Positions 5,169 to 48,639 of a DNA stretch of 64,000 nt are shown in pieces; the stretch's first letter is position 1, and every line of letters begins with the position of its first letter. The DNA lies in contig NC_092813.1 of assembly GCF_040954645.1 (NCBI RefSeq), positions 20,891,735 to 20,955,734 on the forward strand, given 5' to 3'. Source of the stretch: Diabrotica undecimpunctata (taxonomy: Eukaryota; Arthropoda; Insecta; Coleoptera; Chrysomelidae). Position numbers and translations under genes: made by a program. The notes below the pieces were generated by a model. The model did no database searches, was not told where the DNA came from, and worked only from the letters and a program-made list of their open reading frames with translations.

Positions 5169-6565
5169 ATGGACGAAAAACCGAGTTGTTCCAAGAGAAG
5201 ACAGCAAAATTCTGATGTTGATTCCAAGAATGAAAAGCCGCAAAAGAGACGGAAAATGTTAACGTCCGAAGAGAAGGTAATGATACGAAACGTTTATGAA
5301 GGAATTGTCGGCAGAAAAATGGCATTAAACGTTAGCCAAGCGGTCGACATTTGTAGCAGTTTAACAAAAGTATCCGTTAGCTGTATTTATCGTGTACTTA
5401 AAAATACATCGGAAAATAAAAAGCAAGAAAAAGGTAAAACTAGAGGTAGGAAAAGCATTGTTTTGGATGACGAGACAAGGAATATTATAAGTCGAAAAAT
5501 TCATTCATTTTATTTTCGGAGTGAAATTCTAACACTGAAAAAAATTTCTCAAGAGCTCGAAAATGATGACTCTTTACCCAAGATATCTCGTAGGGTCTTA
5601 ATCAGGACCATGCACGAAATGAACTTTCGATACGTAAAACGCAACAGAAAAAGTATGCTATTAGAAAAAAATGAAATTACTCTGTGGAGAAGAAAATATT
5701 TAGAAGAAATACGAAAAATTCGCAGCACTGGATGCAAAATATATTATTTGGATGAAACCTGGATTAACGAAGGTCATACAGTTGGAAAAGTTTGGCAAGA
5801 TTTAAATGTAAAAAGTAAACGCGAAGCATTTATAGAAGGCTGGTCTACAGGATTAAAGGCTCCATCAGGAAAGGGACGGCGTTTAATCATCACCCATATA
5901 GGAAGTGATACAGGGTTCCTTGATGATGGTTTGCTTCAATTTGAGTCGAAAAAAACAGGTGATTATCATGAAGAAATGACTTCTGAAGTATTTGAGCGCT
6001 GGTTTAAGAGAATCTTACCAAAATTGGAATCTGGGTCTGTGGTTGTTATGGACAATGCGCCATATCATAGCCGCAGACTAGAACAATTACCGACGACGGC
6101 ATGGCGGAAAGGGAGAATTCAAGAATAGCTTACAGAAAAGGGGATTGCATACGAAGAATCAATGCTCAAAATTCAACTACTTGACATTGCATGGTTAAGG
6201 AAAAGTGAATATCTTAAATATGTTGTGGATGAAACTGCAAAAGATTATGGTGTTAAAGTTCTGCGTCTACCACCTTATCATTGCGAACTTAATCCCATTG
6301 AACTTATCTGGGCGCAAGTGAAAGGAGAAGTAGCACGCAATAACAAAACGTTCAAATTAAACGAAGTTAAGGAATTTTTGATTCAACAATCCATGTAACT
6401 CCAGAGAAATGGGCTAAATGTATAGGCCACATAATTAAAGAAGAATATCGTATGTGAGAACTTGACACTCATGTCGAAGTTTTACTAGAGCCAATTATAA
6501 TTACACCAGGTGAAGATAATGACAGCGATAGCAGCACTACATCTTCAGATTTAGACAGCGAATAA
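5169..6565 (+). pseudogene. DD82E (Sailor-like) IS630-Tc1-mariner transposase, inactivated
   Basis: A cut-and-paste transposase starting at ATG 5169. A basic N-terminus with a KPQKRRK-type nuclear-localisation stretch precedes a helix-turn-helix region (residues about 35-80). The catalytic triad is visible: D in YYLDETW (residue 195), D in VVMDNAPYH (residue 295) and E in NPIELIW (residue 378). Eighty-two residues separate the second D from the E, far more than the 34-41 of ordinary Tc1/mariner enzymes; this spacing defines the described DD82E/Sailor group. Lesions: an in-frame TAG at 6126-6128, a frame change near 6385-6395 and a TGA near 6456. The C-terminal tail is acidic and serine-rich and ends at 6563-6565. 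Assignment to the superfamily is firm; the Sailor label is from the spacing alone. Confidence 0.85.
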
Positions 6566-6695
6566 TATTTTCTAATAGTTTAGTAGGAACATCAGCATAA
6601 AAAAACCAAAAACAAAAAAAAAACGAGAAGAACATAGTAAGTGTGTATAGTGTTTGTGTTAGAATAGAACAATGTTTTGTTAGTAGAGACAGTAG

Positions 6696-6790
6696 GGAAT
6701 AAGCCACAAAATATTTATTCATAGGTTTAATTTACTGACGTTTCGATCTCTATATAAAGAGATCGTTTTCAAATATACAAATGATAGCAA
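6696..6790 (-). repeat. Extra copy of the foldback arm
   Basis: Begins with aataagccacaa and holds the motif gacgtttcgatctc...gagatcgttttc (6737-6772), as does the left arm of the foldback at 6846. Read on the minus strand it is a stem followed by GAAACGTC, like a decayed hammerhead core. Confidence 0.75.
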
Positions 6791-6845
6791 TATTTATTTT
6801 TTTTGTGGCTTTTTGCTTGTGGCATTCCGTATTTTTAGGGAGAAT

Positions 6846-7087
6846 GTTGGAAATAAGCCACAATACATCTATTTACATGTTTATTTTACTGACGTTTCGA
6901 TCTCTATTACAGAGACCGTTTTTAAAGTTAAGAAAAAAAAAGAAAGTAATATAAGAATATATAAATATATAATAATAAACAAATAAAATAAATATAACTA
7001 TAATTTATATCTTTGAAAACGGTCTTTGGATATAGAGATTGAAACTTCAGTAAAAACCAGATAAATATATTGTGGCCTATTTTGAAC
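6846..7087. repeat. Foldback element, ~85-bp imperfect inverted arms
   Basis: Left arm about 6846-6930 (gttggaaataagccacaata...) and right arm about 7003-7087 are diverged reverse complements around an AT-rich centre. Each arm carries one copy of the stem-plus-GAAAC motif (6891-6926 minus; 7012-7050 plus). Non-coding. Confidence 0.8.

Positions 7088-22757: not shown

Positions 22758-22852
<95 letters not shown>
22757..22852 (+). repeat. (TA)n microsatellite
   Basis: About 95 bp of TA, preceded by aagtaaagtaaag. Confidence 0.95.
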
Positions 22853-22855
<3 letters not shown>

Positions 22856-24237
22856 ATGCTATTTAAATTGTATTATATTGCTTATTTAGAAAAAAATCCT
22901 GTCTATATTTATTAAATGATCTAATCTCCAATTAATCACAATAAATCAGCATTAATTAATAACAATCTCAGGCTATTTAACTTGTACTATTTACCTTTGA
23001 TCGTGGATTCAAAATATTTTCCAATTGGCTTCCTAATTGGGATAGGTATAACAATCAATCCTGTAATATTTGCAATATACTAACTTTAAATATATGAGAA
23101 GTTGTTTTCTATCATGGACCCAAATGTTATTTTACATTCATTTTTAATATGTGTTATAACTAAGCTCTTTTTATAATTTTTTTTTTAAATGATCGCAACA
23201 TTAACTGTCTCTATTATTTATTCAATTTATTTAATTAATAAATGAAAACCACACTCCTGCTCTACTGAAAATTTGACTGACCTTTCTTTCTCTGCCGTTG
23301 CAATTCTATGGCCACGCCACAAAAAAAAATCCTTTCTCTGCTTCTGCTCCTATTGTGGTCCAGATGAAGTACACCTTTCTCCTATCGGTCCTTGTATCTG
23401 CAACCCAACAACTCGTGTTAGTCTATGCAGCCTCCTTTTGTGCCAATCTCCGCGCCTGTTTATAACTCCAAATGTTTCCGGCTTCGTCTGATATTAATAT
23501 TCTTATACCCTTGGGTTTTTCTATCTCTCTGTACCCCGTTCCTCACACTGGTCAGCTTTTACACAGCAAATAAACACACCCGGTAAATTACGTCTTCGGG
23601 ACTTCAAACAAACACAAATCACAAAGCTCCTTCCTTCTTGGACGACGAAAACTGACTAACCAACCTTTTTCCTCTCTCCTATATCATAGCCAAAACCACC
23701 ACCCCCTTGCATTCAAAACTTGACCAATAAAAATCATCCACCTCTGTGACGTATATCGTTACCAACCAACTCTCTCTATAAAACGTCATTCGGGTAATTC
23801 CAGAAAACAACATTCTTTAATTATTCTAACTAAATCTCTCTGCTTTACAAATATTTCTTACTAATAGCTACAAACGATACCTGTTTCTCAATTCAATGTC
23901 TTTTGTTAATAAACTTTTACCGATATAATCTTTCGGGGAGAAAAACCACCGCAAATCCCGGTCTATTGTTTAAACACTTTCTATATACACTTTTATTCCG
24001 GTTAAATCCATTCCACAATAACCGACTTATTTAAATTTCTTATCGATAATATTTGAAAGTCTTGTCTCTGAGGCCTAATGAACAATTCTTCGAACAACTT
24101 AAAATACATATTTTGTCTTATACAGGATGTTTGAAAATTTATATGCCCGTGTCTTTATGAAATATCAATGATTTTAATTTTTATTTAAGTAACAAAATTT
24201 GTATATCGGTTTTTTTTGCTTATGGACATTCAAAAGT

Positions 24238-24242
<5 letters not shown>
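22853..24242. other. No gene seen; possible solo LTR
   Basis: No coding motif. 23270-24000 is distinctly C/T-rich on the plus strand and less AT-rich than its flanks, with a TATA-like ctctctataaaacg near 23774. This could be an LTR or promoter region of a retroelement, but I found no paired ends. Confidence 0.35.

Positions 24243-24330
<88 letters not shown>
24243..24330 (+). repeat. (TA)n microsatellite
   Basis: About 88 bp of TA following tacaacaa. Confidence 0.95.
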
Positions 24331-24333
<3 letters not shown>

Positions 24334-24673
24334 GTAGTATTTAACATAGTTCCCTACCAGTACCATTGTTTAAATAGGACTAGTTAGACAATCCTTATGG
24401 AACAAACGTTTGACTTTTATTCTGCCGTCATATGGCGGCCTCTAGTCATAAATTTAAAAAGCTATTAACAGAAACTTAATTCACTGCAGGATTCTATTCG
24501 AGTATATTTTTACCTGTCTCATAATTAATGCAAACCTGTACACGGATGCCAGATTGTGAAGAAAATATAAGACTTTAATAAAATGCTTATTGTTATTATC
24601 GTTGTATGCGTCTAGTGAAAGATAACTTGACTATTTCGAGCGAATATTTCAAATTGTTTTTGTACTTTGAGAC
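24331..24673. other. No gene seen
   Basis: AT-rich unique-looking DNA between a (TA)n array and the long hairpin. No motif in any frame. Confidence 0.4.
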
Positions 24674-25305
24674 TTCTTTTATTCCTTCTTCAAGACACTG
24701 TAATTAGAAGAAAGTGTAAATATTTACAACATATCTCAAATTGTCATTACAACTTACTAGTCGTTGAGATTATTTTTGTAAAGCTACGACACTCAACATT
24801 AAAAACACACATATAAAATATAACATTTAAAATAATGGACAATATACATTTTAAAATTTAGTTGGAAAGTTAAAATTTTGTTCACATCTTTCCATGGTGT
24901 GTTTTGACTGATCCATAGAGAACAGAAAAAAAAACAAAAATAGAGTGATTAAAAAGTAATTAGGAGTTCTTGCTATTATATTAATGGAAGTAATAGTAGT
25001 AGCAAGAACTCCTAATTACTTTTTAATCACACTATTTTTGTTTTTTTTTTCTGTTCTCTATGGATCAGTCAAAACACACCATGAAAAGATGTTACTAACA
25101 AAATTTTAACTTTCCAACTAAATTTTAAAATGTATATTGTCCATTATTTTAAATGTTATATTTTATATGTGTGTTTTTAATGTTGAGTGTCGTAGCTTTA
25201 CAAAAATAATCTCAACGACTAGTAAGTGGTAATGACAATTTGAGATATGTTGTAAATATTTACACTTTCTTCTAATTACAGTGTCTTGAAGAAGGAATAA
25301 AAGAA
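24674..25305. repeat. Long hairpin: ~300-bp inverted arms, ~26-nt loop
   Basis: Left arm 24674-24974 and right arm 25001-25305 are reverse complements with only a handful of differences by eye (for example ttaca against ggtaa, and small changes near the atctttcc/gatgtt stretch). The centre is attatattaatggaagtaa. No ORF with known motifs. If transcribed it would make a long dsRNA stem. The right arm ends within a hammerhead-like module; the left arm stops in the loop of the same motif. Confidence 0.95.
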
Positions 25306-25313
25306 TTCCGAAA
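25286..25313 (+). ncRNA. Hammerhead-like core at hairpin edge
   Basis: TTGAAGA (25286-25292), one extra A, stem GGAAT/ATTCC (25294-25298 with 25305-25309), loop AAAAGA, then GAAA (25310-25313). Same layout as the motif at 17849, but the first base of CUGANGA is T. Probably a decayed PLE-type ribozyme; activity is doubtful. Confidence 0.45.
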
Positions 25314-25427
25314 GCTTGACCAAAAGTCAAAAGAGTGTTTCTATAACATCCCGGCCAAACCTACTAACTGCAGCCCTAATAAAATGTGTTGTTTGTTTAT
25401 ATCGACAGTCAATAATATCCAGTATTT

Positions 25428-25429
<2 letters not shown>

Positions 25430-25482
<53 letters not shown>
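25430..25482 (+). repeat. (TA)n array, left half
   Basis: About 52 bp of AT/TA ending in acatat next to the BEL left LTR. The other half is at 32437-32493. Confidence 0.95.
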
Positions 25483-25488
<6 letters not shown>

Positions 25489-25944
25489 TGTTGGAACTTT
25501 GATTGATCTCCAACAATTGTTCGGGAGAAAGCTTATTAAATTCCTTTCCCCGTGCGTGTACAGTACCAAATATTTTAGGACCATGGACTGTACAAGAGTT
25601 TCCTTCGATATAGATAAGCAGACTTCACGGCGATGGTTCAGTATGTGTTTGGTTTTATAGGGGTTTGTACTTAGAGAAAAATAAGCGTAATTAATCGATA
25701 CTACACATTTAATAACGAGAAAATATTTACAAAGGCACTATTACTAAATAAAGAGTTCGCTTTAATAAATTGTTCATTTTTATACCGGCGTTTTAGGGGC
25801 GCGCGACTATAGAGAAAACTAAATGCACTTTTTCACCGCACTTTTGACAGTCTGTCAAATACAGTCTGTCAAATAAGATAAAATTCAACATTTGTGGAAA
25901 CGAAAAATAAACTGAAATTAATATAAAATGTTGTTTTTACAACA
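25489..25944 (-). repeat. BEL/Pao 3' LTR
   Basis: TGTTGG...ACAACA on the plus strand, nearly identical to 31980-32438. Contains a doubled acagtctgtcaaa. Confidence 0.95.
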
Positions 25945-25962
25945 TACTCGCCCCCGTTGAAG
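25945..25962 (-). promoter_or_regulatory. Polypurine tract
   Basis: The minus strand reads CAACGGGGGCGAGTA directly before the 3' LTR: the purine run that would prime plus-strand DNA synthesis. Confidence 0.8.
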
Positions 25963-26051
25963 CGCTGGCTTTAACACAAATAAACAGATTATATTATGCC
26001 AAGAGAGCATGCGGAAGAAAAAATACATTACAATTATCATCTTATACTAAC

Positions 26052-28334
26052 TTAAATTAAATCGTCATTGGGTAGAGGACACAATTTTGTAATAGAGCGC
26101 TTGAAGACTCCATCTTTAGTTTTCATCGAGGCAATTCTTACTCTCCCATCTTTTCCGGGAAAGACCTCAATAACTCTTGCTAGTACCCAATGAAGAGAAG
26201 GAGTGTTGTCTTCAATCAGCAACACGAGATCGTTAGGTTCTAGGTTTTTATGAGGGAGAAACCATTTAGGGCGATTTTGAAGCCTATTCAAATAGTCGAT
26301 AGACCATTTTTTCCAAAACACTTGTTGGAGTTTGGACAAACGTTGCCATAAATTCAATCTGTTTTCAGGAATGTGGATCACATCTTTTTCAGGAAAGGAC
26401 GTAAGAGATTGTCCAATCAAGAAGTGTCCAGGAGTAAGATACGTAAAATCGGAGGGGTCATTTGAAAGGGAACAAAGAGGCCGGGAGTTGAGCACAGCTT
26501 CAATTTGACCGAGAACTGTAGCGAATTCTTCGAACGTAAGCTTAACATTGCCAAGGAGCCTACGCATATGATGCTTTGCGCTCTTTATAGCACTTTCCCA
26601 AATACCACCATGGTGAGGGGCTCGAGGAACTATAGTTTTCCAGCGAATATGAGATGAGGCCAAAAATTCCTTAATAGAACGAGAGCTTTCCTTTTCCTTG
26701 AAAAACTTATAGAGTTCAAACAGCTGGTTGCGAGCACCAAGAAAGTTCGTGGCGTTGTCACTGAATATTGTTTGAGGGAGGCCTCTACGGCTAATAAAGC
26801 GTTTTAGAGCGAGAAGAAACGTCTCCGTAGAGAGGCCGGAAACGACTTCAATATGAACAGCTCGAGTCGACAAGCAAACGAAAAGAGCAATATACGATTT
26901 TAATAAAGGAGCCTTACGAAGGTTGGAAGACTTTATCTGAAAGGGGCCGCCAAAATCTAATCCGACGTGAGCGAACACTCGAGAGGAGTTTAAACGTTCT
27001 TTTGGTAAATCTGCCATGATCTGGGTAGCGGGTTTGGCACGAAACTTAAAACAAACCATACATTGGTGAGTGACCTTCTTGACTTCTCGTAGTCCATTTA
27101 AAGGCCAATATTTGAGACGAATTTGTGACAAAGTATTTTGAGGACCTGAGTGACAGAGTCTGATATGTTCTCTGTGGAGGATGAGACGAACTACACGATT
27201 TTTTGAGGGGAGGAGAAGAGGGTATCTTTGATCAAAGGTAACGTCTGAGTTTCTGAGGCGACCTCCCACTTGGAGCATTTCATTCTCATCCAAAAAGGGA
27301 TTTAGGGGTAAAAGACACTTATTAGATAGAGTTTTACCTTTCTTAAGCTCAGAAATCTCACTCGAGAAGTTGGAATACTGAAGCATCTTAATAATCTTAA
27401 GTTCAGCGTTTTGAAGTTCGCTGACTTCAAGGGTATTAGTTAACTTGCGAGAAAGCGGTTTAGCATTATTAGCAAATCTAAACATATAGGCTAAAGTTCT
27501 TACAAACTTTGAAAAATTGGAGAACCTATCATAAAGTGAGGTGAAGAAATCTATTTGATCATTTCGAGCGTGGAGAATGATTTTCCTTTCTTCAGGCAAC
27601 TTGAAAGTATACCCCTTTGGGTTATATTTCAATAAATCCAACCAAAGTTGATTTAAAAATGGAGGACCATGAAACCATAAGGACGAATTTATTAATTCAG
27701 AGGGTAGCATTCCTCGGGAGAGTATGTCGGCAGGATTCTCTTTGGATCGTACGTGCCTCCAGTGAGCATTAGGAGAATTATCTAAAATTTGTGCAACCCT
27801 ATTTGCTACAAATTGGGTCCAACGAGAAGGATGTGAACGAAGCCAAGCGAGAACAATTTCTGAATCCGACCACATATTTATAGAGTCTAATTGAGATAAC
27901 TTTTCTTTAACAATATTAGCAATCTTTGCTGTGAGTTTACTACACAATAGAGCACCCATGAGTTCCAATCTTGGAAGGGTCAAGGGTTTTAACGGAGCAA
28001 CGCGACTCTTAGATGCTAGAAGGGAACAAGACACCTGTTCTGATTTATAGGTCACACGTAAGTAGATACAAGCTCCATAAGCCTTTAAACTTGCATCTGA
28101 GAATGAGTGAATCTCAACACCAGTGATTACTTGACTTAAAAAGAGACATCTAGGTATACTTAAGTCCTTAAAATGAGAGAGACTGCTAATAAAACTTAGC
28201 CATTGATGTAACGTATCTGCGTCAATGGTATCGTTCCAACTGATTTTGGAAATCCAAATCTTTTGCATTATGAGCTTAGCGACAACTGTAACGGGATTAA
28301 TAAGACCTTGAGAATCAAATATTTGGGCAATCAT
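26052..28334 (-). CDS. BEL/Pao pol, 3' part (RNase H, integrase, DUF5641)
   Basis: A 760-codon open frame from ATG 28334. Order of domains: end of RT (IAQIFDSQGLINPVTVVAK), A17/RNase H-like region (SFSDASLKAYGACIYLR, LPRLELMGALL, MWSDSEIVLAWL, ENPADILSRG), integrase zinc motif (HREHIRLCHSG...HQCMVCFK, i.e. HHCC), integrase core with D in HVGLDFGGPF, D in TIFSDNATNFLG and E in HHGGIWESAIK, and a C-terminal DUF5641-like domain (NRPKWFLPHKNLEPNDLVLL). All catalytic residues are visible. It is not an independent gene: it continues the upstream pol after a one-base frame change near 28385, and ATG 28334 lies inside the conserved joint. Confidence 0.93.
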   Translation of the reverse strand: MIAQIFDSQGLINPVTVVAKLIMQKIWISKISWNDTIDADTLHQWLSFISSLSHFKDLSIPRCLFLSQVITGVEIHSFSDASLKAYGACIYLRVTYKSEQVSCSLLASKSRVAPLKPLTLPRLELMGALLCSKLTAKIANIVKEKLSQLDSINMWSDSEIVLAWLRSHPSRWTQFVANRVAQILDNSPNAHWRHVRSKENPADILSRGMLPSELINSSLWFHGPPFLNQLWLDLLKYNPKGYTFKLPEERKIILHARNDQIDFFTSLYDRFSNFSKFVRTLAYMFRFANNAKPLSRKLTNTLEVSELQNAELKIIKMLQYSNFSSEISELKKGKTLSNKCLLPLNPFLDENEMLQVGGRLRNSDVTFDQRYPLLLPSKNRVVRLILHREHIRLCHSGPQNTLSQIRLKYWPLNGLREVKKVTHQCMVCFKFRAKPATQIMADLPKERLNSSRVFAHVGLDFGGPFQIKSSNLRKAPLLKSYIALFVCLSTRAVHIEVVSGLSTETFLLALKRFISRRGLPQTIFSDNATNFLGARNQLFELYKFFKEKESSRSIKEFLASSHIRWKTIVPRAPHHGGIWESAIKSAKHHMRRLLGNVKLTFEEFATVLGQIEAVLNSRPLCSLSNDPSDFTYLTPGHFLIGQSLTSFPEKDVIHIPENRLNLWQRLSKLQQVFWKKWSIDYLNRLQNRPKWFLPHKNLEPNDLVLLIEDNTPSLHWVLARVIEVFPGKDGRVRIASMKTKDGVFKRSITKLCPLPNDDLI

Positions 28335-28350
28335 TGACAGTACTTCTCTC

Positions 28351-30675
28351 TTAGTGTATGAGTTCTTTAGGGTGAAATCTGGAAGAGAGATCAGGATTCC
28401 AGCATAAACCTAAAACCTTATTAGAGCAATTATCTGGAGCTATGACATAAGAAGAGTTTGAAGAGAGAGAAGAAATGTTTTTTAGAAACGAGTCCGAGTT
28501 AGAACACCATTTATGTAGAGAAATACATGCTGTTCCAAGTAAACTAGTTAATTCCTTGTGAGCTTTGAGGAGAGTTTGCTCATCATTAGCACCGTAGAGA
28601 ATGTCATCAATATAACAATTATTTTGAAGAGCGTCACTGGCTAGGGGATATTCAGTTTGATGAGTATTTGCCAGTTCCATTAAACAGCGAGTACTCTGAA
28701 AACTGGCGCTTTTAGTTCCATATGTAACTGTTTGCAATTCCAGGCACTCAATATCTTTTTCCGGGGAGTCACGCCAAAGTATGTTTAACAGAAAGGTTTG
28801 ATCAGGATTGATTTTAACCTGTCTGTACATCTTTTGTATATCAGTTGTGAAAACAAAGGAATATAATCGAAAGCGTAGCAAAATATCAAAAAGTTCCGGT
28901 TGAAGAGTGGGACCTTTGAGTAGGATATCATTTAACGAGTAACTACTAGAGCTTTTCATCGAACCATCGAAAACAACCCTAAGTTTTGTTGTTAAGGATT
29001 CTTCCTTTACTACACAGTGATGCGGGAGAAAATATTTATTTTCTAAATTTTCATTAGTAAGAGAGAGAGGGACTATTCTAGCATGTTCGAGAAAAAGATA
29101 TTCACTAATGAACGACTTATATTGAGCGTATGTATTTTCATTTTTTAAGAGCCTATTTTCTAAATTAATAAATCTCTTTAAAGCTACTTTAAAAGATTCA
29201 CCTAATTTTTTATGCGCATTTTCGCAGACAAGTGGTAGGTTTACTTGAAAACGACCCGAAGGTAAAATACGAGTGGTTTTATTAAATATTTGTTCAGCCA
29301 ATTCCTCATCGGGGGTTAATTTACTAACGTGGGGAACTTCTTCAATTTCGAAAAATTGTTGTATCAATTTATCTAAATTATTCTCTTCGGATTCGGACTG
29401 AACAAAGAGAGAAACATTTGACTGAGAAATAGCCAAGTTTGAACTCCGATGAAAGACATGAGGGGGAATAGTACCAAAAATAACATAACCTAAGTGGGTA
29501 TTCTGAAGAATGGGAAGATTCTTTCCTAAACGAATGAATCCATCAGTCAATAATTCGCTATAGATGTCGCCAGCTAGAAGCAAATCAATTTTACCGGGAA
29601 CAGAGTACGAGGGATCTGCGAGAGTGAGATTAGGTGGAACATTTATTTTGCTTCTATCTAGGGTAGCTTTAGGAAGCCTACAGGTTATACTATCGAGTAC
29701 AGCAAAAGAAGTTTTGAAACTTCTATCCTTCACATTATAGGGAAAAAATTCTATGTTAATCATTTGATTTGACATTGAGGTGTTTTCGGATATGGTTGAT
29801 ATCTGTAACTGTTTAAAATAAGGGGTGAGGTTTAACTTCTCAACCAAATCACGAGAAATGAACGAATGTTGACTCCCATTATCTAGGAGCGCCCTGGCAT
29901 GCATAGGTCTGCCATCTTTAGAATACACTGTCACTAAAGCGGTAGCCAACAATACATCAGCTTTAACTGATAAAGCAGAGAGAGAAGTGGCTGTATGAGA
30001 ATCTGCAGTATTTTGTACTTCTAAAGGAGGTTTGAACGAACTGGTAGAAGCTTCGTTTTGGGCATGAGCATTATAAGAGGGCGGAGTAGATGTGTAAGCA
30101 ACACGACTGGAAGAGCCTTGAGAATGTTTGGGAGCTTGAGCGTTGCGATCAATAGAGAAATATTGCCTATTCGTGTTCCTAGAGGAAGAGACATTTTCAG
30201 AGGTACTATGCAAGAGCGAGTGATGTCTTTTCTTACATATACTACATGAGCGTGAAGAGTTGCAATCTTGAGAAAAATGTTTATTACCCAAACAATTCCA
30301 ACAAAGTTTCTTACCTTTTACAAAATTAAATCTTTCCTGTAAAGAGAGACATTTAAAATCATTACACTGATAAATTTTATGAGAATTACTTTTACAACAT
30401 ATACAATTAGTATCCGAAAACGAGTTTGTTTGTAAATTAACTGATGAAAACAAAGATGTTTTTAATTGAGGTTTATTAAATTTTTTATCATTATCAGAAA
30501 CGTTTAATTTTTCTTGTATATCACATTTTTTCTCGAGAAAACTAAAAAACTGTGAGAGAGTAGGTAAAGCCTTTGAATCTATTTCATACTCAAATGACCT
30601 ATGCGTCGCGAAATCTAATTTTTGTAAAAATACTTCGATCAATAGTAAATCCCAGTGTTCGATAGGTACAGACAT
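28351..30675 (-). CDS. BEL/Pao gag C-terminus, protease and RT
   Basis: A 774-codon frame from ATG 30675. It starts inside Gag, then has cysteine/histidine knuckles (CICCKSNSHKIYQC, LCWNCLGNKHFSQDC, CSICKKRHHSLLH), a low-complexity linker, and a DUF1758-type aspartic protease with ALLDNGSQHSFIS. Most relatives have D-S/T-G here, so DNG is a notable change at the active site. The RT follows with VVFDGSMKSSSSYSLND, FTTDIQKMYRQVKI and the catalytic YIDDILYG (about 28592-28615). The frame ends at 28351 after a one-base shift near 28385; the next frame at 28334 carries on. An in-frame TAA at about 30697 separates it from the N-terminal Gag. Confidence 0.93.
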   Translation of the reverse strand: MSVPIEHWDLLLIEVFLQKLDFATHRSFEYEIDSKALPTLSQFFSFLEKKCDIQEKLNVSDNDKKFNKPQLKTSLFSSVNLQTNSFSDTNCICCKSNSHKIYQCNDFKCLSLQERFNFVKGKKLCWNCLGNKHFSQDCNSSRSCSICKKRHHSLLHSTSENVSSSRNTNRQYFSIDRNAQAPKHSQGSSSRVAYTSTPPSYNAHAQNEASTSSFKPPLEVQNTADSHTATSLSALSVKADVLLATALVTVYSKDGRPMHARALLDNGSQHSFISRDLVEKLNLTPYFKQLQISTISENTSMSNQMINIEFFPYNVKDRSFKTSFAVLDSITCRLPKATLDRSKINVPPNLTLADPSYSVPGKIDLLLAGDIYSELLTDGFIRLGKNLPILQNTHLGYVIFGTIPPHVFHRSSNLAISQSNVSLFVQSESEENNLDKLIQQFFEIEEVPHVSKLTPDEELAEQIFNKTTRILPSGRFQVNLPLVCENAHKKLGESFKVALKRFINLENRLLKNENTYAQYKSFISEYLFLEHARIVPLSLTNENLENKYFLPHHCVVKEESLTTKLRVVFDGSMKSSSSYSLNDILLKGPTLQPELFDILLRFRLYSFVFTTDIQKMYRQVKINPDQTFLLNILWRDSPEKDIECLELQTVTYGTKSASFQSTRCLMELANTHQTEYPLASDALQNNCYIDDILYGANDEQTLLKAHKELTSLLGTACISLHKWCSNSDSFLKNISSLSSNSSYVIAPDNCSNKVLGLCWNPDLSSRFHPKELIH

Positions 30676-30696
30676 ATTTTTAAGAGCAAGTAAAGT

Positions 30697-31368
30697 TTAT
30701 TTACAAAGAGTTAAAAATTCTCGTAATGATTTTGCGTTACTTTTAGCTAAAGATGGAGCCTTTAACAATTTTTGGATGTGTAAACTAATCACACGCGATT
30801 TATTTTCGTATCTATTCTTAAGCGTGTCCAAAGCGATCCGGAAATTTTCTTCTACAACTTCTATATTTTCTATCAAATGTAAAGGTTCATTTTTTAAGAA
30901 AGATTTCAGATATATAAATTTTTGCACATTGTTTAGCTCTACATTATTGATTATTAGCGTTTCAAATAGCTGATAAAACGCGTTCCAATCGGCGAAGTTT
31001 CCTGAGAATACCTGCATCGTAATTTCCGGCAACCTAACCTTAGCAGTGGCTACAGTTGGTGGAGTATCGTTTGAGATGAGCGAGTGGGAGGGTAACTTTA
31101 AAGCTTCCATCTTATGCTGCAGTCCAGCTAGTGTAGAAAAGTATTTTTCCTCCATCAGTACCCTGTCTTCTGTTTCAGAATCGGTTTCATCGATTTCTTC
31201 AATCTGATCCATCACGTCTTCATATTTCAGATAACACGTTTTCAATTCGGTGTGTCTGAGTTGAAACTGGAGACCGTCAGTTTCTGCATCTGCGTTTTCT
31301 AGTAACCAGTTCGCTATTCTGGTAATCTTGGCCTTCAGTTGTTTTCTCTTCTTCTTGAGATCTTCCAT
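30697..31368 (-). CDS. BEL/Pao gag N-terminus (DUF1759-type)
   Basis: A 223-codon frame from ATG 31368 to a TAA at 30697-30699. Basic, helical start (MEDLKKKRKQLKAKITRI), a coiled-coil-like stretch to about residue 85, then the DUF1759-type Gag core LPEITMQVFSGNFADWNAF...QKFIYLKSFL and a final SLREFLTLCK. It would form the capsid shell. The next ORF is in the same frame 21 bases on, so one stop codon interrupts a single gag-pol reading. BEL/Pao elements usually use one ORF, so this is most simply a nonsense mutation; programmed readthrough is less likely. Confidence 0.9.
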   Translation of the reverse strand: MEDLKKKRKQLKAKITRIANWLLENADAETDGLQFQLRHTELKTCYLKYEDVMDQIEEIDETDSETEDRVLMEEKYFSTLAGLQHKMEALKLPSHSLISNDTPPTVATAKVRLPEITMQVFSGNFADWNAFYQLFETLIINNVELNNVQKFIYLKSFLKNEPLHLIENIEVVEENFRIALDTLKNRYENKSRVISLHIQKLLKAPSLAKSNAKSLREFLTLCK

Positions 31369-31444
31369 TTTGACTTTAACAAAAGGTACTACTCCAAAAA
31401 CAAATGCCTAAGGCCGTGCAAACACCGAATTCTTTAGAGAAATT

Positions 31445-31592
31445 AATGTTTATATTATATACTAATATCTGTATCACACGGCGAAAATAGAGTCAATAAT
31501 GTTTTTATTATAATAACCTGTAGAGCACACAACGAGAATAGAGTCAATAATGTTTATATCATATAATAACATGTGTAGCACACGGCGAGAGA
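31445..31592 (-). repeat. ~52-bp tandem repeat in BEL 5' UTR
   Basis: Nearly three copies of a unit with aatgttt, a TA-rich part, cacacggcga and atagagtcaat. It lies between the 5' LTR and gag on the element's strand. Confidence 0.8.
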
Positions 31593-31954
31593 GTTTATAG
31601 TTTATTAAAACGCGATAAATGTCTTAAATTACACTGAAAGTTTACTTTTCAATTAAATTTTTCGCACACGCGGTAAATGTCTACAAATGTCTACTAATAA
31701 ATTTTTTAAAGAGATAGTCTTTTTGAAAAGCGGTTCACTTTGTGCATAAGCGAAATTATAATATGGAAAAATCTCACCCAATTTGTCCAGTAGTTTACAG
31801 CAACAGGCACAAACACCAGATAAAATTCACTTCTGTCCTTTTGTTTTAGAGTTTATCGCGACACATTAGTCTTTTCGAGGGTCTTTTAATCACATTTATA
31901 TAAATATGCAAACCTAAGAGTAAAGTACAAACAACGCGATCACCAAACACAAAA

Positions 31955-31975
31955 TCCGTCGAGTTAGGACCAAAA
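31955..31975 (-). promoter_or_regulatory. Candidate tRNA primer-binding site
   Basis: On the minus strand, TGGTCCTAACTCGACGG begins about 6 nt after the 5' LTR. The TGG start fits pairing with a tRNA 3' CCA end. I cannot name the tRNA from sequence alone. Confidence 0.6.
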
Positions 31976-31979
31976 ATAA

Positions 31980-32432
31980 TGTTGGAACTTTGATTGATCT
32001 CCAACAATTGTTCGGGAGAAAGCTTATTAAATTCCTTTCCCCGTGCGTGTACAGTACCAAATATTTTAGGACCATGGACTGTACAAGAGTTTCCTTCGAT
32101 ATAGATAAGCAGACTTCACGGCGATGGTTCAGTATGTGTTTGGTTTTATAGGGGTTTGTACTTAGGGGAGAAAAATAAACGTAATTAATCGATACTACAC
32201 ATTTAATAACGAGAAAATATTTACAAAGGCACTATTACTAAATAAAGAGTTAGCTTTAATAAATTGTTCATTTTTATACCGGCGTTTTAGGGGCGCGCGA
32301 CTATAGAGAAAACTAAATGCACTTTTTCACCGCACTTTTGACAGTCTGTCAAATACAGTCTGTCAAATAAGATAAAATTCAACATTTGTGGAAACGAAAA
32401 ATAAACTGAAATTAATATAAAATGTTGTTTTT

Positions 32433-32438
<6 letters not shown>
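31980..32438 (-). repeat. BEL/Pao 5' LTR
   Basis: TGTTGG...ACAACA on the plus strand; the promoter copy for this minus-strand element. Differs from the other LTR by 2 substitutions and 3 extra bases (aggggag). Confidence 0.95.

Positions 32439-32493
<55 letters not shown>
32437..32493 (+). repeat. (TA)n array, right half
   Basis: About 55 bp of TA adjoining the right LTR; with 25430-25482 it was one array before the BEL insertion. Confidence 0.95.
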
Positions 32494-32497
<4 letters not shown>

Positions 32498-42245: not shown

Positions 42246-42561
42246 AAGTCAATATTGTGTCAAAATAGTGACAAACAGCTCTGAAATATTAATAGTAAAA
42301 ACCGATAATTAACAAGTTAAAATTATTACTAAAGTAATTATAGTGATTGTTTAAGTGCAGGAAATCATACGTGAGTAAAGAAAACTTTGATTTTGTTTGA
42401 TTGCATGATAATAAACTGAATAAATTATTGTCCTAAATAACCTAATAATTAGGTTAAAATAAAAAGAGCAATTATCAAAATCTGGTTGCTAGTCAACTTT
42501 CAAATAAAACAGATCCGTACTCAGCCGAATTGATGAAACCGAAAAATCGAAAACGACCAAA

Positions 42562-43881
42562 ATGAATAGTAATAACGGCAATGTTATTATTGAGACTGAG
42601 AACTCACCAAACACTAAAAAATACTCCACAGCATTGATTCACTCACCAACAACTTTTCCTAGCAAAGATCAGGCAATTATCTTTTCTGCAATAGAGGGCC
42701 TCAAATTACAAGATTATTTATTAGAACTGGGACCACTTGTAGATCCAAAAAACATAATTTTTTCATCCAGAATTTCAAACAACCGTGTTTGTGTATACTT
42801 ATCAAGTAAATCAGCTGTAGACAAATTTTTAAAAGAACATAATTCTATTAAGATTAATAACACAGTAATACCAGTACGAAAGCTAGTTACCCCGTCACAA
42901 AGACTTGTTCTATCCAACGTAAGTCCCACAATTCCACATAATTTATTGGAAACCGAGTTAAAAATCATTGGATTACAGCTAATGTCACCCCTTACATTCT
43001 TACGAATTGGAGCAACCGATCCAGCGTATAGTCACATACTTAGTTTTCGAAGACAGGTGTACATATCTCCTCCAGAAGATAGTTTCCAAATTCCCGATAC
43101 ACTAGAAATTAATCATGATGACTTAAAATATCGCATATTTCTCACAACAGATTCATTATGCTATAAGTGCAAGCAACCAGGACATTTTGCATCTCAATGT
43201 GCCGGCCTTCAACTCCAAACTTCAACTTCTTCATATACTAGATCACAACAAGAAAGTTCCTCTCTAAACCATTCCTTAGACAGCAATAATGTAGGTGAGT
43301 TTATATCAAATACTACTAACCCTGAAATGATATGTGAACCAACACCAATTACTCCTACATTTAATGAGCCCAATCCTGACATACCCGCTTCTAATGAATT
43401 TCAAACAACTCCGATAACTAAACCTAAGACCTCCAAACGAAATTTATCTGAAATTGCAACATCTAGCCCAGAAGATACACCAGATATTACTAATTCCTCA
43501 GAACCAAAATCTTACTTTCCAACACCTGTTCCAAAAGTTCCAAAGAAAAAGTTGAAGTCGAAAGATAAACCCTCATTAGAATTTCCAGAATTGCCCCAAA
43601 AGATAACCAATTTTATTGACAATCACAATCCCAAGTTCCCACTCGATAGTCAACAATTCACTAATCTGTTAGAGAACACTCACGGTAGTAATGATGCATT
43701 AAGCATTGCTAAAGACTATACCCTACATATTTCATCTCTTATAGAAATGATAAATGAAATACATACCCAGGCTGAAGATCGAAATATGAAAATTAAATGT
43801 ACTAGACTAAGTAAAAAATTAACCAAACAACTGCTCGAACATGTTGGCTCATCTGACGACAGCGATATATCTCAAAACTAA
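42562..43881 (+). CDS. I-like ORF1, nucleic-acid-binding Gag-like protein
   Basis: 439 residues from ATG 42562 (context ccaaaATGAA). Residues about 25-190 hold a two-part region with IIFSSRISNNRVCVYLSS, VPVRKLVTPSQRLVLSNVSPTIPHN, and LTFLRIGATDPAYSHILSFRRQVYI, resembling the RRM-like pair found in ORF1 proteins of I-like elements. A single CCHC knuckle, CYKCKQPGHFASQC, is at residues 200-213. The C-terminal half is serine-, proline- and threonine-rich with a basic KKKLKSKDK stretch and ends in a helical acidic tail. It should bind element RNA and make the RNP. The stop at 43879-43881 lies inside the start of ORF2. Confidence 0.93.
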   Translation: MNSNNGNVIIETENSPNTKKYSTALIHSPTTFPSKDQAIIFSAIEGLKLQDYLLELGPLVDPKNIIFSSRISNNRVCVYLSSKSAVDKFLKEHNSIKINNTVIPVRKLVTPSQRLVLSNVSPTIPHNLLETELKIIGLQLMSPLTFLRIGATDPAYSHILSFRRQVYISPPEDSFQIPDTLEINHDDLKYRIFLTTDSLCYKCKQPGHFASQCAGLQLQTSTSSYTRSQQESSSLNHSLDSNNVGEFISNTTNPEMICEPTPITPTFNEPNPDIPASNEFQTTPITKPKTSKRNLSEIATSSPEDTPDITNSSEPKSYFPTPVPKVPKKKLKSKDKPSLEFPELPQKITNFIDNHNPKFPLDSQQFTNLLENTHGSNDALSIAKDYTLHISSLIEMINEIHTQAEDRNMKIKCTRLSKKLTKQLLEHVGSSDDSDISQN

Positions 43882-46800
43882 TTATTTAAATAAAAATAAA
43901 TTCATGTATAATAATATTTTACAGTGGAACTTAAACAGTTTTTACACCCGCCTACCCTTATTTCAGGTCCTTATTAAGAAATATTCACCTGATATTATAT
44001 GTCTTCAAGAAACTAATTTTAAAGGCAACAATGCGTATAACTTGAGGTCATATAATGTTTACTACCAAAATAGACAAACAAATCACGCTAGTGGCGGTGT
44101 TGCGATATATGCTAAAACCGATTTACAAGTAAACAGAATAACAATTAAAACAAACTTAGAAGCAATAGCAGTAACAGTAACAATAGGTACTAATCAAAAA
44201 ATGAACATATGTAACGTTTATATTCCCCCGAGCCAAAATATCCAAGGAAATGAACTTTCCGACATAATTATGCAAATTCCATCACCAAAATTAATTCTCG
44301 GGGACTTTAACAGCCATAATCTTCTATGGGGTTCCGGAAAAACAACTAAAAATGGAAAGGTATTAGCAAACGTAATTGATAGCATGAATTTAACAATAAT
44401 GAACGACGGAGCTAAAACTCGTTTCGACGCAGCTACTGGAAATTTTTCAGCTATTGACTTGTCTATTTCTGACCCATCGACGTTACTAAATCACACATGG
44501 CAAACCGTAGACGATTTATATGGAAGTGATCATTATCCAATAATAGTAACAAAAATTTCCAACCCCACAACAAAAACCAATCCTTTGCAAAAGTGGAAAA
44601 TTAAGCAAGCCAACTGGAACATTTTTAAAACAAAAATTACTGAAGAAATACCGAATATCCCTATAATTGAAGAAGACATAAACTTAACTTTAAAATTGTT
44701 TAATAACTTAATCACTGAAGCGGCCACAATTGCAATGGGAAAAACAAAGTATATAACAAAAAACAAAGTTGTTCCCTGGTGGAATGAAGAGTGTAAATTG
44801 GCAATAAAACAAAGTAAAAAAGCTTTAAATACTTTCAAAAGACATAAAACCAATGAGAACTTAATAGAGCTAAAGAAAAAAAGGGCATATGCAAAATTAA
44901 TTACTACCAGATCTAAAAAAGAGTCCTGGAAAAAATACGTTCAAAGTATTAACAGGAATACAAACATGTCATCAGCATGGAAAAAAGTTAAGAAGATTTC
45001 TGGCGTCAGTACACAAAATGGAATAAAATACCTACAACGAAATGGAAACATAATTAATGAAAACAAGAAAATTGTAGAAGAATTAGCTGAAACATACAGA
45101 CAAGAATCTACAAATGAAAATTACAGCAATACTTTTTTACGATATCGGGAAGAAGAAGAAGCAAATCCAATAGAAATTATAGCCAATAACGATGATATAA
45201 ATACTACAATTAATAAAACAGAACTATTAGAAACAATCCAAATGTTAAAAGACACATCACCAGGTCCAGATGACATACCCGCAATATTCTTAAAACAGTT
45301 ACCTAACGAAGCTTTAGACTTTCTATTGAATCTTTTTAATACAATCTGGTGTAAACATAAATTTCCTGACTTATGGAAACAAGCTATTGTCATCCCTATA
45401 CTAAAACCTAACAAACCGGCTACAGCGGCAGAATCATATAGGCCAATATCACTTACATGTTCTACTTGCAAACTGCTAGAGAAAATAATAAATAATAGAC
45501 TTATGTGGCATTTGGAACATCACAATTTACTTATACCGGAACAAGCTGGATTTCGTCCTTTGAGATCTACTATAGATAATGTTTTACATTTAGAAAGTCA
45601 AATTAATGAAGCCTTCTGTAACAATCAGAAATGCATAGCTGTTTACTTTGACATCCACAAAGCATTTGACTTAGCATGGCGACACAGAATATTAACAAAG
45701 TTGCAGACTTGGGGAATTCAAGGAAACATGTTGGCATTTTTGAACAACTTTCTACATGAACGCAAATTTTCTGTACGTAGTAATGGAGAAATTTCTAGTA
45801 TTAAGTCTCAAGACAATGGAACACCACAAGGATCTGTAATTAGCCCTACACTTTTTTTAATTGCAATGAATGATGTTATAAAAAATCTCAAGAGACCTGC
45901 ACAGGCTAGATTATATGCTGATGATATGATAATGTTTATCAAAGGAAAAAATATTAACTCGATGGTCAAACTTTTACAAGAAGAACTAAATAAAATCGAA
46001 AGGTGGTCTAATAGGAGTGGATTCTATTTTTCAGCTGACAAGACACAATATATTATTTTTTCCAAAAAGCCTATTCACACTAACATACCTGCCTTAAAAT
46101 TCGGCACAAAGTTTTTAAAACGAAGTACAAAGATAAAATATTTAGGCATAACATTCGACGAAACTTTAAGTTGGAAACCACATATTAAACAATTGGCGAT
46201 ATCATGTCAAAATGGTATAAATCTTCTTAAATGTTTAGCCAACACACGATGGGGTGCTGACGGAGATACATTATTACTGTTGTATAGAAGCCTAATTCGA
46301 TCAAAATTGGATTACGGATGCATTGCATATTCTTCAGCGTCGAAGACAAATTTAAAAATCTTAGACATTATACACAACAATGCATTACGCATAATCTCTG
46401 GAGCTTATAGAACAACTCCTGTTGCAAGTCTCGAGTGGGAACTTGGAGAGCCATCATTACATGAACGACGTAAATTACTTAGTCTATCTTACGCTTCAAA
46501 ACAATCATCACTACAACCTGACAACCATTTTCTTACTCAGCCATCGTTATCAAATATCAATATAAGAACACATTTACCATTTCAATTAAGGATCAAAAAC
46601 ATTTTAAACTCTATTGAAATTTTTAACTTTCCCTCAACACATTCAGCAAACGTAAACACGCCACCTCCTTGGTTAATACCTTTGCCTACTTTAAATTTAG
46701 AACTATCATCATATCATAAATCTGAAACTAATCCACAAATATTTATAAGCAATTATAATAGAATACTTTCTTCTTTCGCTGAATATACCCAAGTTTACAC

Positions 46801-47581
46801 AGATGCATCTAAAACAACTTCTGGTGTAGGATCATCATTTGTTATAAGAGACATAATAAAAAGTTTCAAATTGCCCACAGAATCCACTGTGATAACTGGA
46901 GAATTGTATGCAATATACAGAGCTCTAATTCACATACAAACAGTCAAACCAGATAAATTCCTTATTATTACTGACTCAATCAATTCCCTTCATATACTGT
47001 CAAAAATGTACACTTGCAACCCGATAGCTAAATTAATTAAAAACAAGATGCAGCAGCTGGAAAACAAAACATTAGTCTTCGTGTGGGTACCATCACATAT
47101 AGGCATTAAAGGAAACGAACTAGCTGATAAAAATGCTCGGGAAATAGCAAATTCCCCAAATATCAGACCGATAATAAAACCATTAGCAAAAGATCTCAAT
47201 CCGTACTTTAAACAAAAGCTGATATGTAATTGGACTAAATGTTGGGAAGAAAAATCCTCAAAGTTAAAAGAAATTAAACCAAATTTTGGACGATGGACTA
47301 ACAACGCCCCTAGCCGTTTCCTTCAGGTTGTATTAACCAGGCTCCGATTAGGACACAGCAAACTCACCCATGAATATCTCATGAAGAAGGAACCTCAACC
47401 AAAATGTACGAGTTGTGACGTGCCGTTAACAGTGAAACACGTATTAACGGAGTGTCCCAAATATAGTACTGAAAGACTAACTAATAAAATCCCATCAGTT
47501 ATAAGGGACATTTTTAGTGAGTGTACCAGTGAAAATATTGTGAAATTTTTAAGAGACTGTAACATATTGAACCACATATAA
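43841..47581 (+). CDS. I-like ORF2: APE endonuclease, RT, RNase H, zinc motif
   Basis: 1246 residues, uninterrupted. The APE endonuclease covers about 22-240: QWNLNSFYTR, CLQETNFKG, LILGDFNSHN, and GSDHYPIIV near residue 227. The RT covers about 460-760: SPGPDDIPA, ESYRPISLTC, IPEQAGFRPLRST, VYFDIHKAFDLAW, GTPQGSVISPTLF and YADD near residue 691. RNase H begins with YTDASK at residue 985, then GELYAI, LIITDSINSL and VWVPSHIGIKGNELAD, so all acidic residues are present. A CTSC...KHVLTEC cluster is near residue 1188. RNase H after the RT is characteristic of the I group. The frame overlaps ORF1 by 41 bp in another frame; ATG 43841 or the later ATG 43904 could be the start, the second just before the endonuclease. 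Confidence 0.95.
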   Translation: MLAHLTTAIYLKTNYLNKNKFMYNNILQWNLNSFYTRLPLFQVLIKKYSPDIICLQETNFKGNNAYNLRSYNVYYQNRQTNHASGGVAIYAKTDLQVNRITIKTNLEAIAVTVTIGTNQKMNICNVYIPPSQNIQGNELSDIIMQIPSPKLILGDFNSHNLLWGSGKTTKNGKVLANVIDSMNLTIMNDGAKTRFDAATGNFSAIDLSISDPSTLLNHTWQTVDDLYGSDHYPIIVTKISNPTTKTNPLQKWKIKQANWNIFKTKITEEIPNIPIIEEDINLTLKLFNNLITEAATIAMGKTKYITKNKVVPWWNEECKLAIKQSKKALNTFKRHKTNENLIELKKKRAYAKLITTRSKKESWKKYVQSINRNTNMSSAWKKVKKISGVSTQNGIKYLQRNGNIINENKKIVEELAETYRQESTNENYSNTFLRYREEEEANPIEIIANNDDINTTINKTELLETIQMLKDTSPGPDDIPAIFLKQLPNEALDFLLNLFNTIWCKHKFPDLWKQAIVIPILKPNKPATAAESYRPISLTCSTCKLLEKIINNRLMWHLEHHNLLIPEQAGFRPLRSTIDNVLHLESQINEAFCNNQKCIAVYFDIHKAFDLAWRHRILTKLQTWGIQGNMLAFLNNFLHERKFSVRSNGEISSIKSQDNGTPQGSVISPTLFLIAMNDVIKNLKRPAQARLYADDMIMFIKGKNINSMVKLLQEELNKIERWSNRSGFYFSADKTQYIIFSKKPIHTNIPALKFGTKFLKRSTKIKYLGITFDETLSWKPHIKQLAISCQNGINLLKCLANTRWGADGDTLLLLYRSLIRSKLDYGCIAYSSASKTNLKILDIIHNNALRIISGAYRTTPVASLEWELGEPSLHERRKLLSLSYASKQSSLQPDNHFLTQPSLSNINIRTHLPFQLRIKNILNSIEIFNFPSTHSANVNTPPPWLIPLPTLNLELSSYHKSETNPQIFISNYNRILSSFAEYTQVYTDASKTTSGVGSSFVIRDIIKSFKLPTESTVITGELYAIYRALIHIQTVKPDKFLIITDSINSLHILSKMYTCNPIAKLIKNKMQQLENKTLVFVWVPSHIGIKGNELADKNAREIANSPNIRPIIKPLAKDLNPYFKQKLICNWTKCWEEKSSKLKEIKPNFGRWTNNAPSRFLQVVLTRLRLGHSKLTHEYLMKKEPQPKCTSCDVPLTVKHVLTECPKYSTERLTNKIPSVIRDIFSECTSENIVKFLRDCNILNHI

Positions 47582-47698: not shown

Positions 47699-48217
47699 TA
47701 CACTATAGCAATCGAAACATCGGAAAGTACATTTATAATATAATAAATATTTCAGTGCCAATGTATTAAAAAAAATTCTAGTACATAAAAATGGACACTT
47801 GCCTATTCAAAGTTTATAATAGACACTAATTTCAGTTTATCTATAATTAATGCAAGTAATATAAATTATAATTATTAAAATATTTAACTACATTAACCAA
47901 GTACGTATTTGTGAAATTTCTCGATGACTAAATTGATTGATATTTAAATAAATTTGAAGTTCCAAAACGTACCTGCTGTAAAATTTAAAAATCTACGACT
48001 AATTAAATTATTGGCAACATCGGAGGAGTTTAGTTGGGTACGCAAAGAAATGTATACGGATCCCAAAAGTGTTTTAACCTATTACAGAGTCCACTTAATC
48101 CGACGTGTTGGTCGGAGTCCACATAAAGCGCTACCCAGATAATAATATACACGGTGTATATTCGCCTGGAGTTAGTATAATACCGTTTTAGTACGGAGCT
48201 CTCATTAACCGCTAGAT
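47699..48217. other. No gene seen
   Basis: AT-rich. 48040-48200 holds tccgacgtgttggtcgga (near 48098-48115), a short palindrome, and ends ...acggagctctcattaacc before the microsatellite; cggagctc also occurs near 32575 beside another TA array. Confidence 0.35.
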
Positions 48218-48218
48218 C

Positions 48219-48306
<88 letters not shown>
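48218..48306 (+). repeat. (TA)n microsatellite with TATG interruptions
   Basis: TA run with three TGTA breaks. Confidence 0.95.
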
Positions 48307-48307
<1 letters not shown>

Positions 48308-48351
48308 AAGAGTAAAAAAACAGAAATTTTTAGATAGGAAAAAAAAAGATC

Positions 48352-48391
48352 CCATAGGACTACCAAAAACAAATTTTTGGTAGTCCTATGG
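48352..48391. repeat. Perfect 18-bp palindrome at a PLE breakpoint, 4-nt spacer
   Basis: ccataggactaccaaaaa (48352-48369) is the reverse complement of tttttggtagtcctatgg (48374-48391), the first bases of the PLE RT fragment, so the element's 5' edge has an inverted copy. Confidence 0.92.
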
Positions 48392-48618
48392 AATTTAGTC
48401 TTTCATCTATTCTAAGTAGCTATGTCATAGATGATGTTATCAGTGATTGTATCAACAATTGCACTTTTTTCATTCCTTTTTTTAAAGATATGTAGATGAT
48501 TTAGTTTTGGTACTTCCTAAACACAAAATTATTGAAATAGTCAACATTTTCAAGAATCTTAATCAACATATACAATTTACAGTTGAGGTAGAGGTAGACA
48601 ATTCTCTAGTTCCTTAGA
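48374..48618 (+). pseudogene. Penelope-like reverse transcriptase fragment
   Basis: About 80 codons. The plus strand reads FGSPMG-like text at the 5' edge, FSLSSILSSYVIDDVISD, then KRYVDDLVLVLPKHKI with the catalytic YVDD, and NLNQHIQFTVEVE ending in a stop after NSLVP. The order G-S-P-M-G ... R-Y-V-D-D ... F-T-x-E is typical of PLE RTs, which are related to telomerase. One frame adjustment is needed near 48380. Only the palm core is present; the GIY-YIG endonuclease is absent. Confidence 0.75.
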
Positions 48619-48639
48619 GTAGGTTTCAAGTCCAGTACT

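Follow-up and report, generated by a model that had tools for sequence, protein, structure and literature searches.

A long hairpin in the Diabrotica undecimpunctata genome as a probable minimal inverted pair of Penelope-like element insertions

Results

The window, i.e. the whole stretch of 64,000 nucleotides analysed here (Diabrotica undecimpunctata, RefSeq assembly GCF_040954645.1, contig NC_092813.1, positions 20,891,735 to 20,955,734 of the forward strand), lies on a contig of 33.85 Mb, referred to as C11, in a genome of 1.74 Gb. At positions 24674-25313 it carries a long hairpin that is real and far beyond chance. A repeat search of the window retrieved inverted arms at 24665-24882 and 25097-25314 (218 nt, 98% complementary) and a second arm pair at 24884-24940 and 25036-25092 (57 nt, 95% complementary) belonging to the same single hairpin, and the RNA of 24674-25313 folds with -457 kcal/mol, shuffled sequences averaging -107 (sd 5.7, n=20). 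The 632-bp hairpin with near-identical arms described in an earlier sequence-only reading is thus borne out, and the same fold supports its prediction that any transcript would form long dsRNA. Positions 24938-25037 also show a sub-threshold resemblance to mir-548 in Rfam (57 bits, cutoff 90), for which the length and nearly perfect pairing of the stem are probably responsible.

On either side of the hairpin are parts of a LINE-like host element: its 3' end (24355-24673, minus strand; of the 40 copies of 24331-24670 that were scored, 33 start at 24355-24364) and the rest of it (48213-51110, minus strand), where a TA array, a Penelope-like reverse transcriptase fragment read by eye and LINE RNase H and reverse transcriptase (RT) sequences are found. 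The left arm (arm A, 24674-24987, minus strand) and the right arm (arm B, 24988-25428, plus strand) meet head-to-head at 24970-24992, the loop of the hairpin, and this junction has 21 exact matches in the genome. Beyond arm B follows a (TA)n tract (25430-25488), part of the target TA array, which was later split by 22.7 kb of nested insertions (25489-48212). The first of these is a BEL/Pao LTR retrotransposon (25494-32437, minus strand; A17 peptidase and DUF5641, with rve below cutoff), inserted into the same TA array as the hairpin and flanked by TA tracts at 25430-25488 and 32438-32495. At 42508-47581 (plus strand) there is a LINE with an open endonuclease-RT frame of 1252 aa preceded by a 457-aa frame, and at 22813-24244 another dispersed repeat likewise ends at a TA array, with a further copy at 5516-6959 of locus L051.

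A 300-bp query from the arm had 1561 candidate places in the genome, 40 of which were scored, and many autosomal copies consist of one arm only, followed by coding sequence. The repeat unit, numbered u1-u567 and written antisense to the element, adjoins a (TA)n tract at one end and stops at the other just inside an open frame with an RT domain (RVT_1, Pfam E 5.9e-13). The frame's own match to the GIY-YIG endonuclease is weak (E 0.0006 and 0.0014; 20.5 and 19.3 bits, below the Pfam cutoff of 22.6); a relative, P0002 (54% identity over 97% of the query), carries PF01541 and, with such relatives added, a C-terminal GIY-YIG endonuclease can be assigned on sequence similarity. Protein relatives number 357 at E<=0.001 and, among the best 120 of them, the top one comes from Diabrotica virgifera, 87% identical over 83% of the query. 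The end of the unit falls 13 nt before the ORF match in five of the six loci with an ORF start and 17 nt before it in L072, as expected of the pseudo-LTR (pLTR) of a Penelope-like element (PLE). PLE copies end next to TA at either u1 (tailed) or u27 (tailless), with 423 and 516 exact genome matches, respectively. Since the unit continues into a frame with RT and a weak GIY-YIG match, and precedes the ORF, the arms are the 3'UTR/pLTR of a PLE. Arm A is accordingly a 5'-truncated copy of u116-u449, with PLE sense on the minus strand, and arm B a copy in the opposite orientation running from about u437 to u1 and including the optional 3' tail, u1-u26. The two alternative ends resemble the optional PLE tail of 30-40 bp, which has been tied to two adjacent RT start sites (Frangieh 2024, PMC11167929). 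A 3' end encoding the N-terminus of a next copy received no support from tblastn with the best 120 of the 357 relatives (best E 0.025), nor was a PLE match found in the continuations of three units (L067-L069).

The hairpin is present at 28 loci, 18 of them on C11, eight on other large contigs and two on C30 and C36; the copy at L015, on C11, is interrupted by an insert. Fourteen of the 21 exact hairpin junctions fall on C11, which makes up 1.9% of the assembly, an excess that may reflect segmental duplication or a special chromosome. The inner junction common to the hairpin copies is u449/u432, at the loop, with an asymmetry of just 17 nt in the window hairpin, and the host flanks are common to the hairpin loci wherever they were compared. 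In the tree the B arms form one clade of 21 rows (support 98/91), the A-side clade is weakly supported (77/81), and a 3-nt deletion marks 22 of 23 rows labelled A and two of 23 labelled B; two row labels were wrong, L013_B being an A arm and L039_B not a hairpin. Most likely, judging from these comparisons, the hairpin arose once. The arms of one hairpin differ from each other about as much as from the median of other copies (2.5% and 2.5% in L019, 2.1% and 2.4% in L021, 4.0% and 3.2% in L023), and in 13 other inverted pairs the partner was closer than at least 86% of copies in eight cases and not in five.

At L042 and L043 the rest of the host element follows directly after the hairpin, at L046 about 0.3 kb separates the hairpin from the host RNase H/RT part, and L044 is without most of arm B; the 22.7 kb of nested insertions seen in the window is absent from these four loci. 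Host copies free of the hairpin have a bare TA array at this place in three of six cases (L064-L066) and have lost the array in the other three (L061-L063). Because bare arrays occur there, the PLE pair most likely entered a TA microsatellite already present and later travelled with the LINE-like element.

The outer edge of arm A has a different origin. The left arm ends at u116 in the window because about 1.3 kb was lost in a secondary deletion, which took away u27-u115 together with the TA tract and left a junction (24673/24674) with microhomology of about 2 nt. The 20-nt junction, GAGACTT joined to CTTTTATT, is found in eight fetched loci including the window, six on C11 and one each on C30 and C36, and undeleted sequence stands at that place in L009, L045, L047, L049 and L050, with L049 and L050 retaining the missing part, TA tract included. 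A sublineage with members on C11, C30 and C36 thus carries a left arm shortened by this deletion. Beyond the 3' end of the host, too, the eight loci share their sequence throughout the part fetched (23070-23323), which gives them the appearance of segmental duplicates.

This bears on the proposal in the sequence-only reading that the arm breakpoint falls at the loop of stem II in a hammerhead-like ribozyme and that ribozyme-bearing RNA ends guided an inverted insertion. The string in question, TTGAAGA-A-GGAAT-AAAAGA-ATTCC-GAAA, is present on the right arm (25286-25313, plus strand), and the left arm does stop within the stretch corresponding to it. The edge is nevertheless the deletion junction of the eight loci just described; in other copies both arms run through the string, which L049 and L050 also retain. 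Outer arm edges across copies fall at u1, at u27 (next to TA), u68, u89/90 and u116, unrelated to the string at about u116-u143, and the inner junction u449/u432 lies about 300 nt away from it. Arm boundaries independent of the module were among the outcomes that the sequence-only reading had itself named as refuting.

The hammerhead label did not hold either. Against the conserved core CUGANGA...GAAA, 99 of 100 matches have T at position C3, one has A and none has C, and all 84 matches to a stricter pattern have T, some copies being counted more than once in these figures as the fetched loci overlap. There is an extra A before the stem II position and no stem I in the string; three folded examples gave no stem I or three-helix hammerhead fold, and the module was as stable as shuffled sequences in two of them (z -0.09 and 0.06), with z at -1.16 in the third. 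Rfam returned no hammerhead in the window at gathering cutoffs, and none at E<=10 in the window stretch plus 12 other loci, where the sub-threshold hits belonged to other families. Nor was there an Rfam hammerhead match near the PLE ORF start in six loci, where a motif scan found four strings, three with T at C3 and one with a CTGANGA core, in L071 and outside the PLE copy. Two sites, window 51097 (plus strand) and L071 871 (plus strand), combine a CTGANGA...GAAA core with a short stem; neither has an Rfam hammerhead or, folded once, a hammerhead fold. We treat the string on the arm as a chance resemblance with no demonstrable part in hairpin formation, judging from its sequence and predicted folds.

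Head-to-head arrangement is not peculiar to the hairpin. The inner unit pattern occurs at 259 sites and, among the 100 listed, all 11 neighbours within 5 kb are head-to-head, where 0.07 would be expected. The 197 tailed or tailless ends listed from C1 and part of C2 yielded 19 neighbours within 10 kb, of which 15 are head-to-head, two tandem and two tail-to-tail (one 101 nt and the other 10 kb apart). Both lists hold exact matches among 100 places listed (C1-C2 or C1-C4), so young copies dominate them. One exception to the head-to-head rule, at G000:C2:100616520-100616653, consists of two tailed PLE ends tail-to-tail, about 100 nt apart. Inner junctions vary between pairs, with overlaps of a few bases or fillers of up to about 40 nt, and other pairs join unrelated inner ends (e.g. 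777/421, 64/538, 799/2537; a value of 2555, the left end of L052, is merely the cut end of the reference). Inner ends lie within 45 nt of each other in four of 16 pairs (L035, L055, L056 and the hairpin), compared with 1.0 under shuffling (P ~0.01); L039 (409/439, with extra sequence between) was excluded, and its inclusion makes five of 17. No TA run of at least 12 nt was found inside any of the 11 pairs, 60 nt at each end excluded, and in ten of them TA accounts for at least 26 of the 60 nt adjoining the pair at each end, L052 having 8 and 60.

The outer ends follow a more regular pattern. One partner is tailed and the other tailless in 14 of the 15 head-to-head pairs from C1 and part of C2 (P 0.0005), or in 13 of 14 (P 0.0009) if two pairs spaced 80 and 86 nt represent one amplified event. 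The same holds for ten of the 11 fetched pairs in which each end could be read, L035 being taken as tailless at u31 and six pairs (L030, L055-L057, L059 and L060) being left out for an unreadable end. In the union of the two sets, which share one pair, 23 of 25 are mixed (P ~1e-5), the tailed/tailed exceptions being L034 and one pair of 4.25 kb. The hairpin conforms to this rule, arm A being tailless (u27) and arm B tailed (u1) in L011, L019 and L023. Related PLE families were sampled through their 150 best N-terminal hits, a test which sees only copies retaining the 5' end; these hits gave 14 head-to-head, 12 tandem and no tail-to-tail neighbours within 10 kb. Five copies of one related family, with 816-aa frames, stand at G000:C1:87784091-87802688 in exact steps of 3036 bp, accompanied by one inverted copy.

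Discussion

The finding can be summarized as a minimal inverted PLE pair which most likely formed once and spread with its host element, together with a later deletion in one sublineage. We favour, as the probable origin of the hairpin, a very short head-to-head pair of PLE insertions in which both strands of one TA break primed reverse transcription. According to this model, the PLE endonuclease would cut both strands in the (TA)n array within the 3' part of the LINE-like element, and each broken end would then prime reverse transcription of PLE RNA near the 3' end of that RNA, one initiation taking place at the outer (tailed) and the other at the inner (tailless) start site. Synthesis of the two cDNAs would halt after about 430-450 nt, still within the 3'UTR, and be joined end to end. 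Two initiations at one TA break would account for TA at the outer ends, for the bias in orientation, for the mixed ends and for inner junctions that vary between pairs, and the locus itself offers support in the identity of the arms, the bare TA array, the single origin and the combination of one tailed with one tailless outer end. Biochemistry is in part congruent with this scheme: a purified PLE enzyme cuts both strands and extends them, initiates reverse transcription at two neighbouring sites and favours AT-rich DNA, although the start site did not differ between strands in vitro, which counts against our reading (PMC11167929). Also against initiation from the two ends of one break are the near-symmetry of four of the 16 pairs, the arms of the hairpin being no closer mutually than to other copies, the two tandem and two tail-to-tail neighbours within 10 kb and the tailed/tailed pairs. 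What survives of the sequence-only reading is the involvement of inverted retroelement RNA ends and the predicted long dsRNA, without the link between breakpoint and ribozyme.

A broader version of the same model, on which we are close to evenly divided and lean slightly towards doubt, holds that PLE integration is inherently two-sided, with the adjacent RT start sites shared out one per side, so that nearly all inverted pairs are mixed and the hairpin is the shortest product. If this were true, the enzyme would be expected to act as a dimer whose two active sites are not equivalent.

The best-surviving alternative is fold-back self-priming, whereby one PLE cDNA, or an antisense template, copied its own strand to yield a palindrome with a short loop. 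Self-priming was inferred from palindromes at inverted junctions in Arkhipova 2013 (PMC3846280), and the 17-nt asymmetry of the window hairpin, like the near-symmetric pairs, would suit it well. We nonetheless regard it as unlikely, as it predicts the same outer end on both arms, whereas the hairpin at L011, L019 and L023 has different ones, as do 23 of 25 pairs in the sampled part of the genome, and other pairs have unrelated inner ends. Sequential insertion, i.e. a second PLE copy landing beside the first in the same TA array, draws some plausibility from the nested insertions seen in this very array and from the few tandem and tail-to-tail neighbours. It would hardly account for one orientation in all 11 close neighbours (from 100 of the 259 sites) and in 15 of 19 on C1 and part of C2, or for the lack of TA runs between the partners in 11 of 11 pairs, and appears improbable to us. 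Guidance of an inverted insertion by hammerhead cleavage, with the breakpoint at the stem II loop, could invoke the GGAAT/ATTCC stem and the hammerhead near the ORF start of an Anolis PLE, Poseidon (PMC11167929); with C3 never C in any match, no Rfam hammerhead, and an edge that is a deletion found in a sublineage while other copies have their edges elsewhere, we give it very little credence. Least credible of all is a DNA transposon of the MITE kind, bounded by long terminal inverted repeats, or else a fold-back created in assembly, to which the long inverted arms, small loop and mir-548 resemblance might point, and which we rejected, the fold-back artefact being the case that the sequence-only reading had itself raised, since single-arm copies run into the PLE reading frame and the differences between arms A and B are consistent over 28 loci.

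Micron and MSITE elements, which are non-coding, also sit in TA microsatellites; the beetle element shares with them the insertion into TA arrays and differs in being PLE-derived. With canonical PLEs, as presented in PMC11167929 and PMC3846280, it has in common an ORF with RT and GIY-YIG domains, a pLTR before the ORF, 5' truncation, AT-rich targets and an inverted pLTR arrangement in which one partner bears a tail, and tandem copies are seen in related families of the Diabrotica genome. The beetle element departs from canonical PLEs in having its tail end 13 nt short of the ORF match instead of within the ORF, in targeting a (TA)n array, in the reduction of the pair to the 3'UTR and in the lack of a recognisable hammerhead in the loci scanned. 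That one of the inverted pLTRs may bear a tail had already been noted (PMC3846280), and inverted pLTRs and 3' extensions are given as PLE peculiarities in PMC8969392. We therefore do not claim the pair-forming mechanism as unpublished. The tailed/tailless rule as a genome-wide count is stated in no title or abstract retrieved by a search covering few subscription journals; inverted PLE repeats and optional tails are already in print, and the counted rule may be new. Although the kind of finding is known, this rule is the part worth following.

Two views exist on how PLEs integrate and on the reason for the frequent inversion of their copies, with self-priming proposed in PMC3846280 and priming from both strands shown in vitro in PMC11167929. 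In a large beetle genome, where near-identical copies run to hundreds and empty TA sites and tailed or tailless ends can be read, these models become separable by counting. The siRNAs of Drosophila virilis Penelope are thought to derive from long inverted repeats (PMC3136932); the beetle hairpin is alike in consisting of inverted copies able to give dsRNA, which here is predicted from sequence. The locus also illustrates how a PLE pair can hitch-hike within another retroelement, spreading a ready-made potential source of dsRNA.
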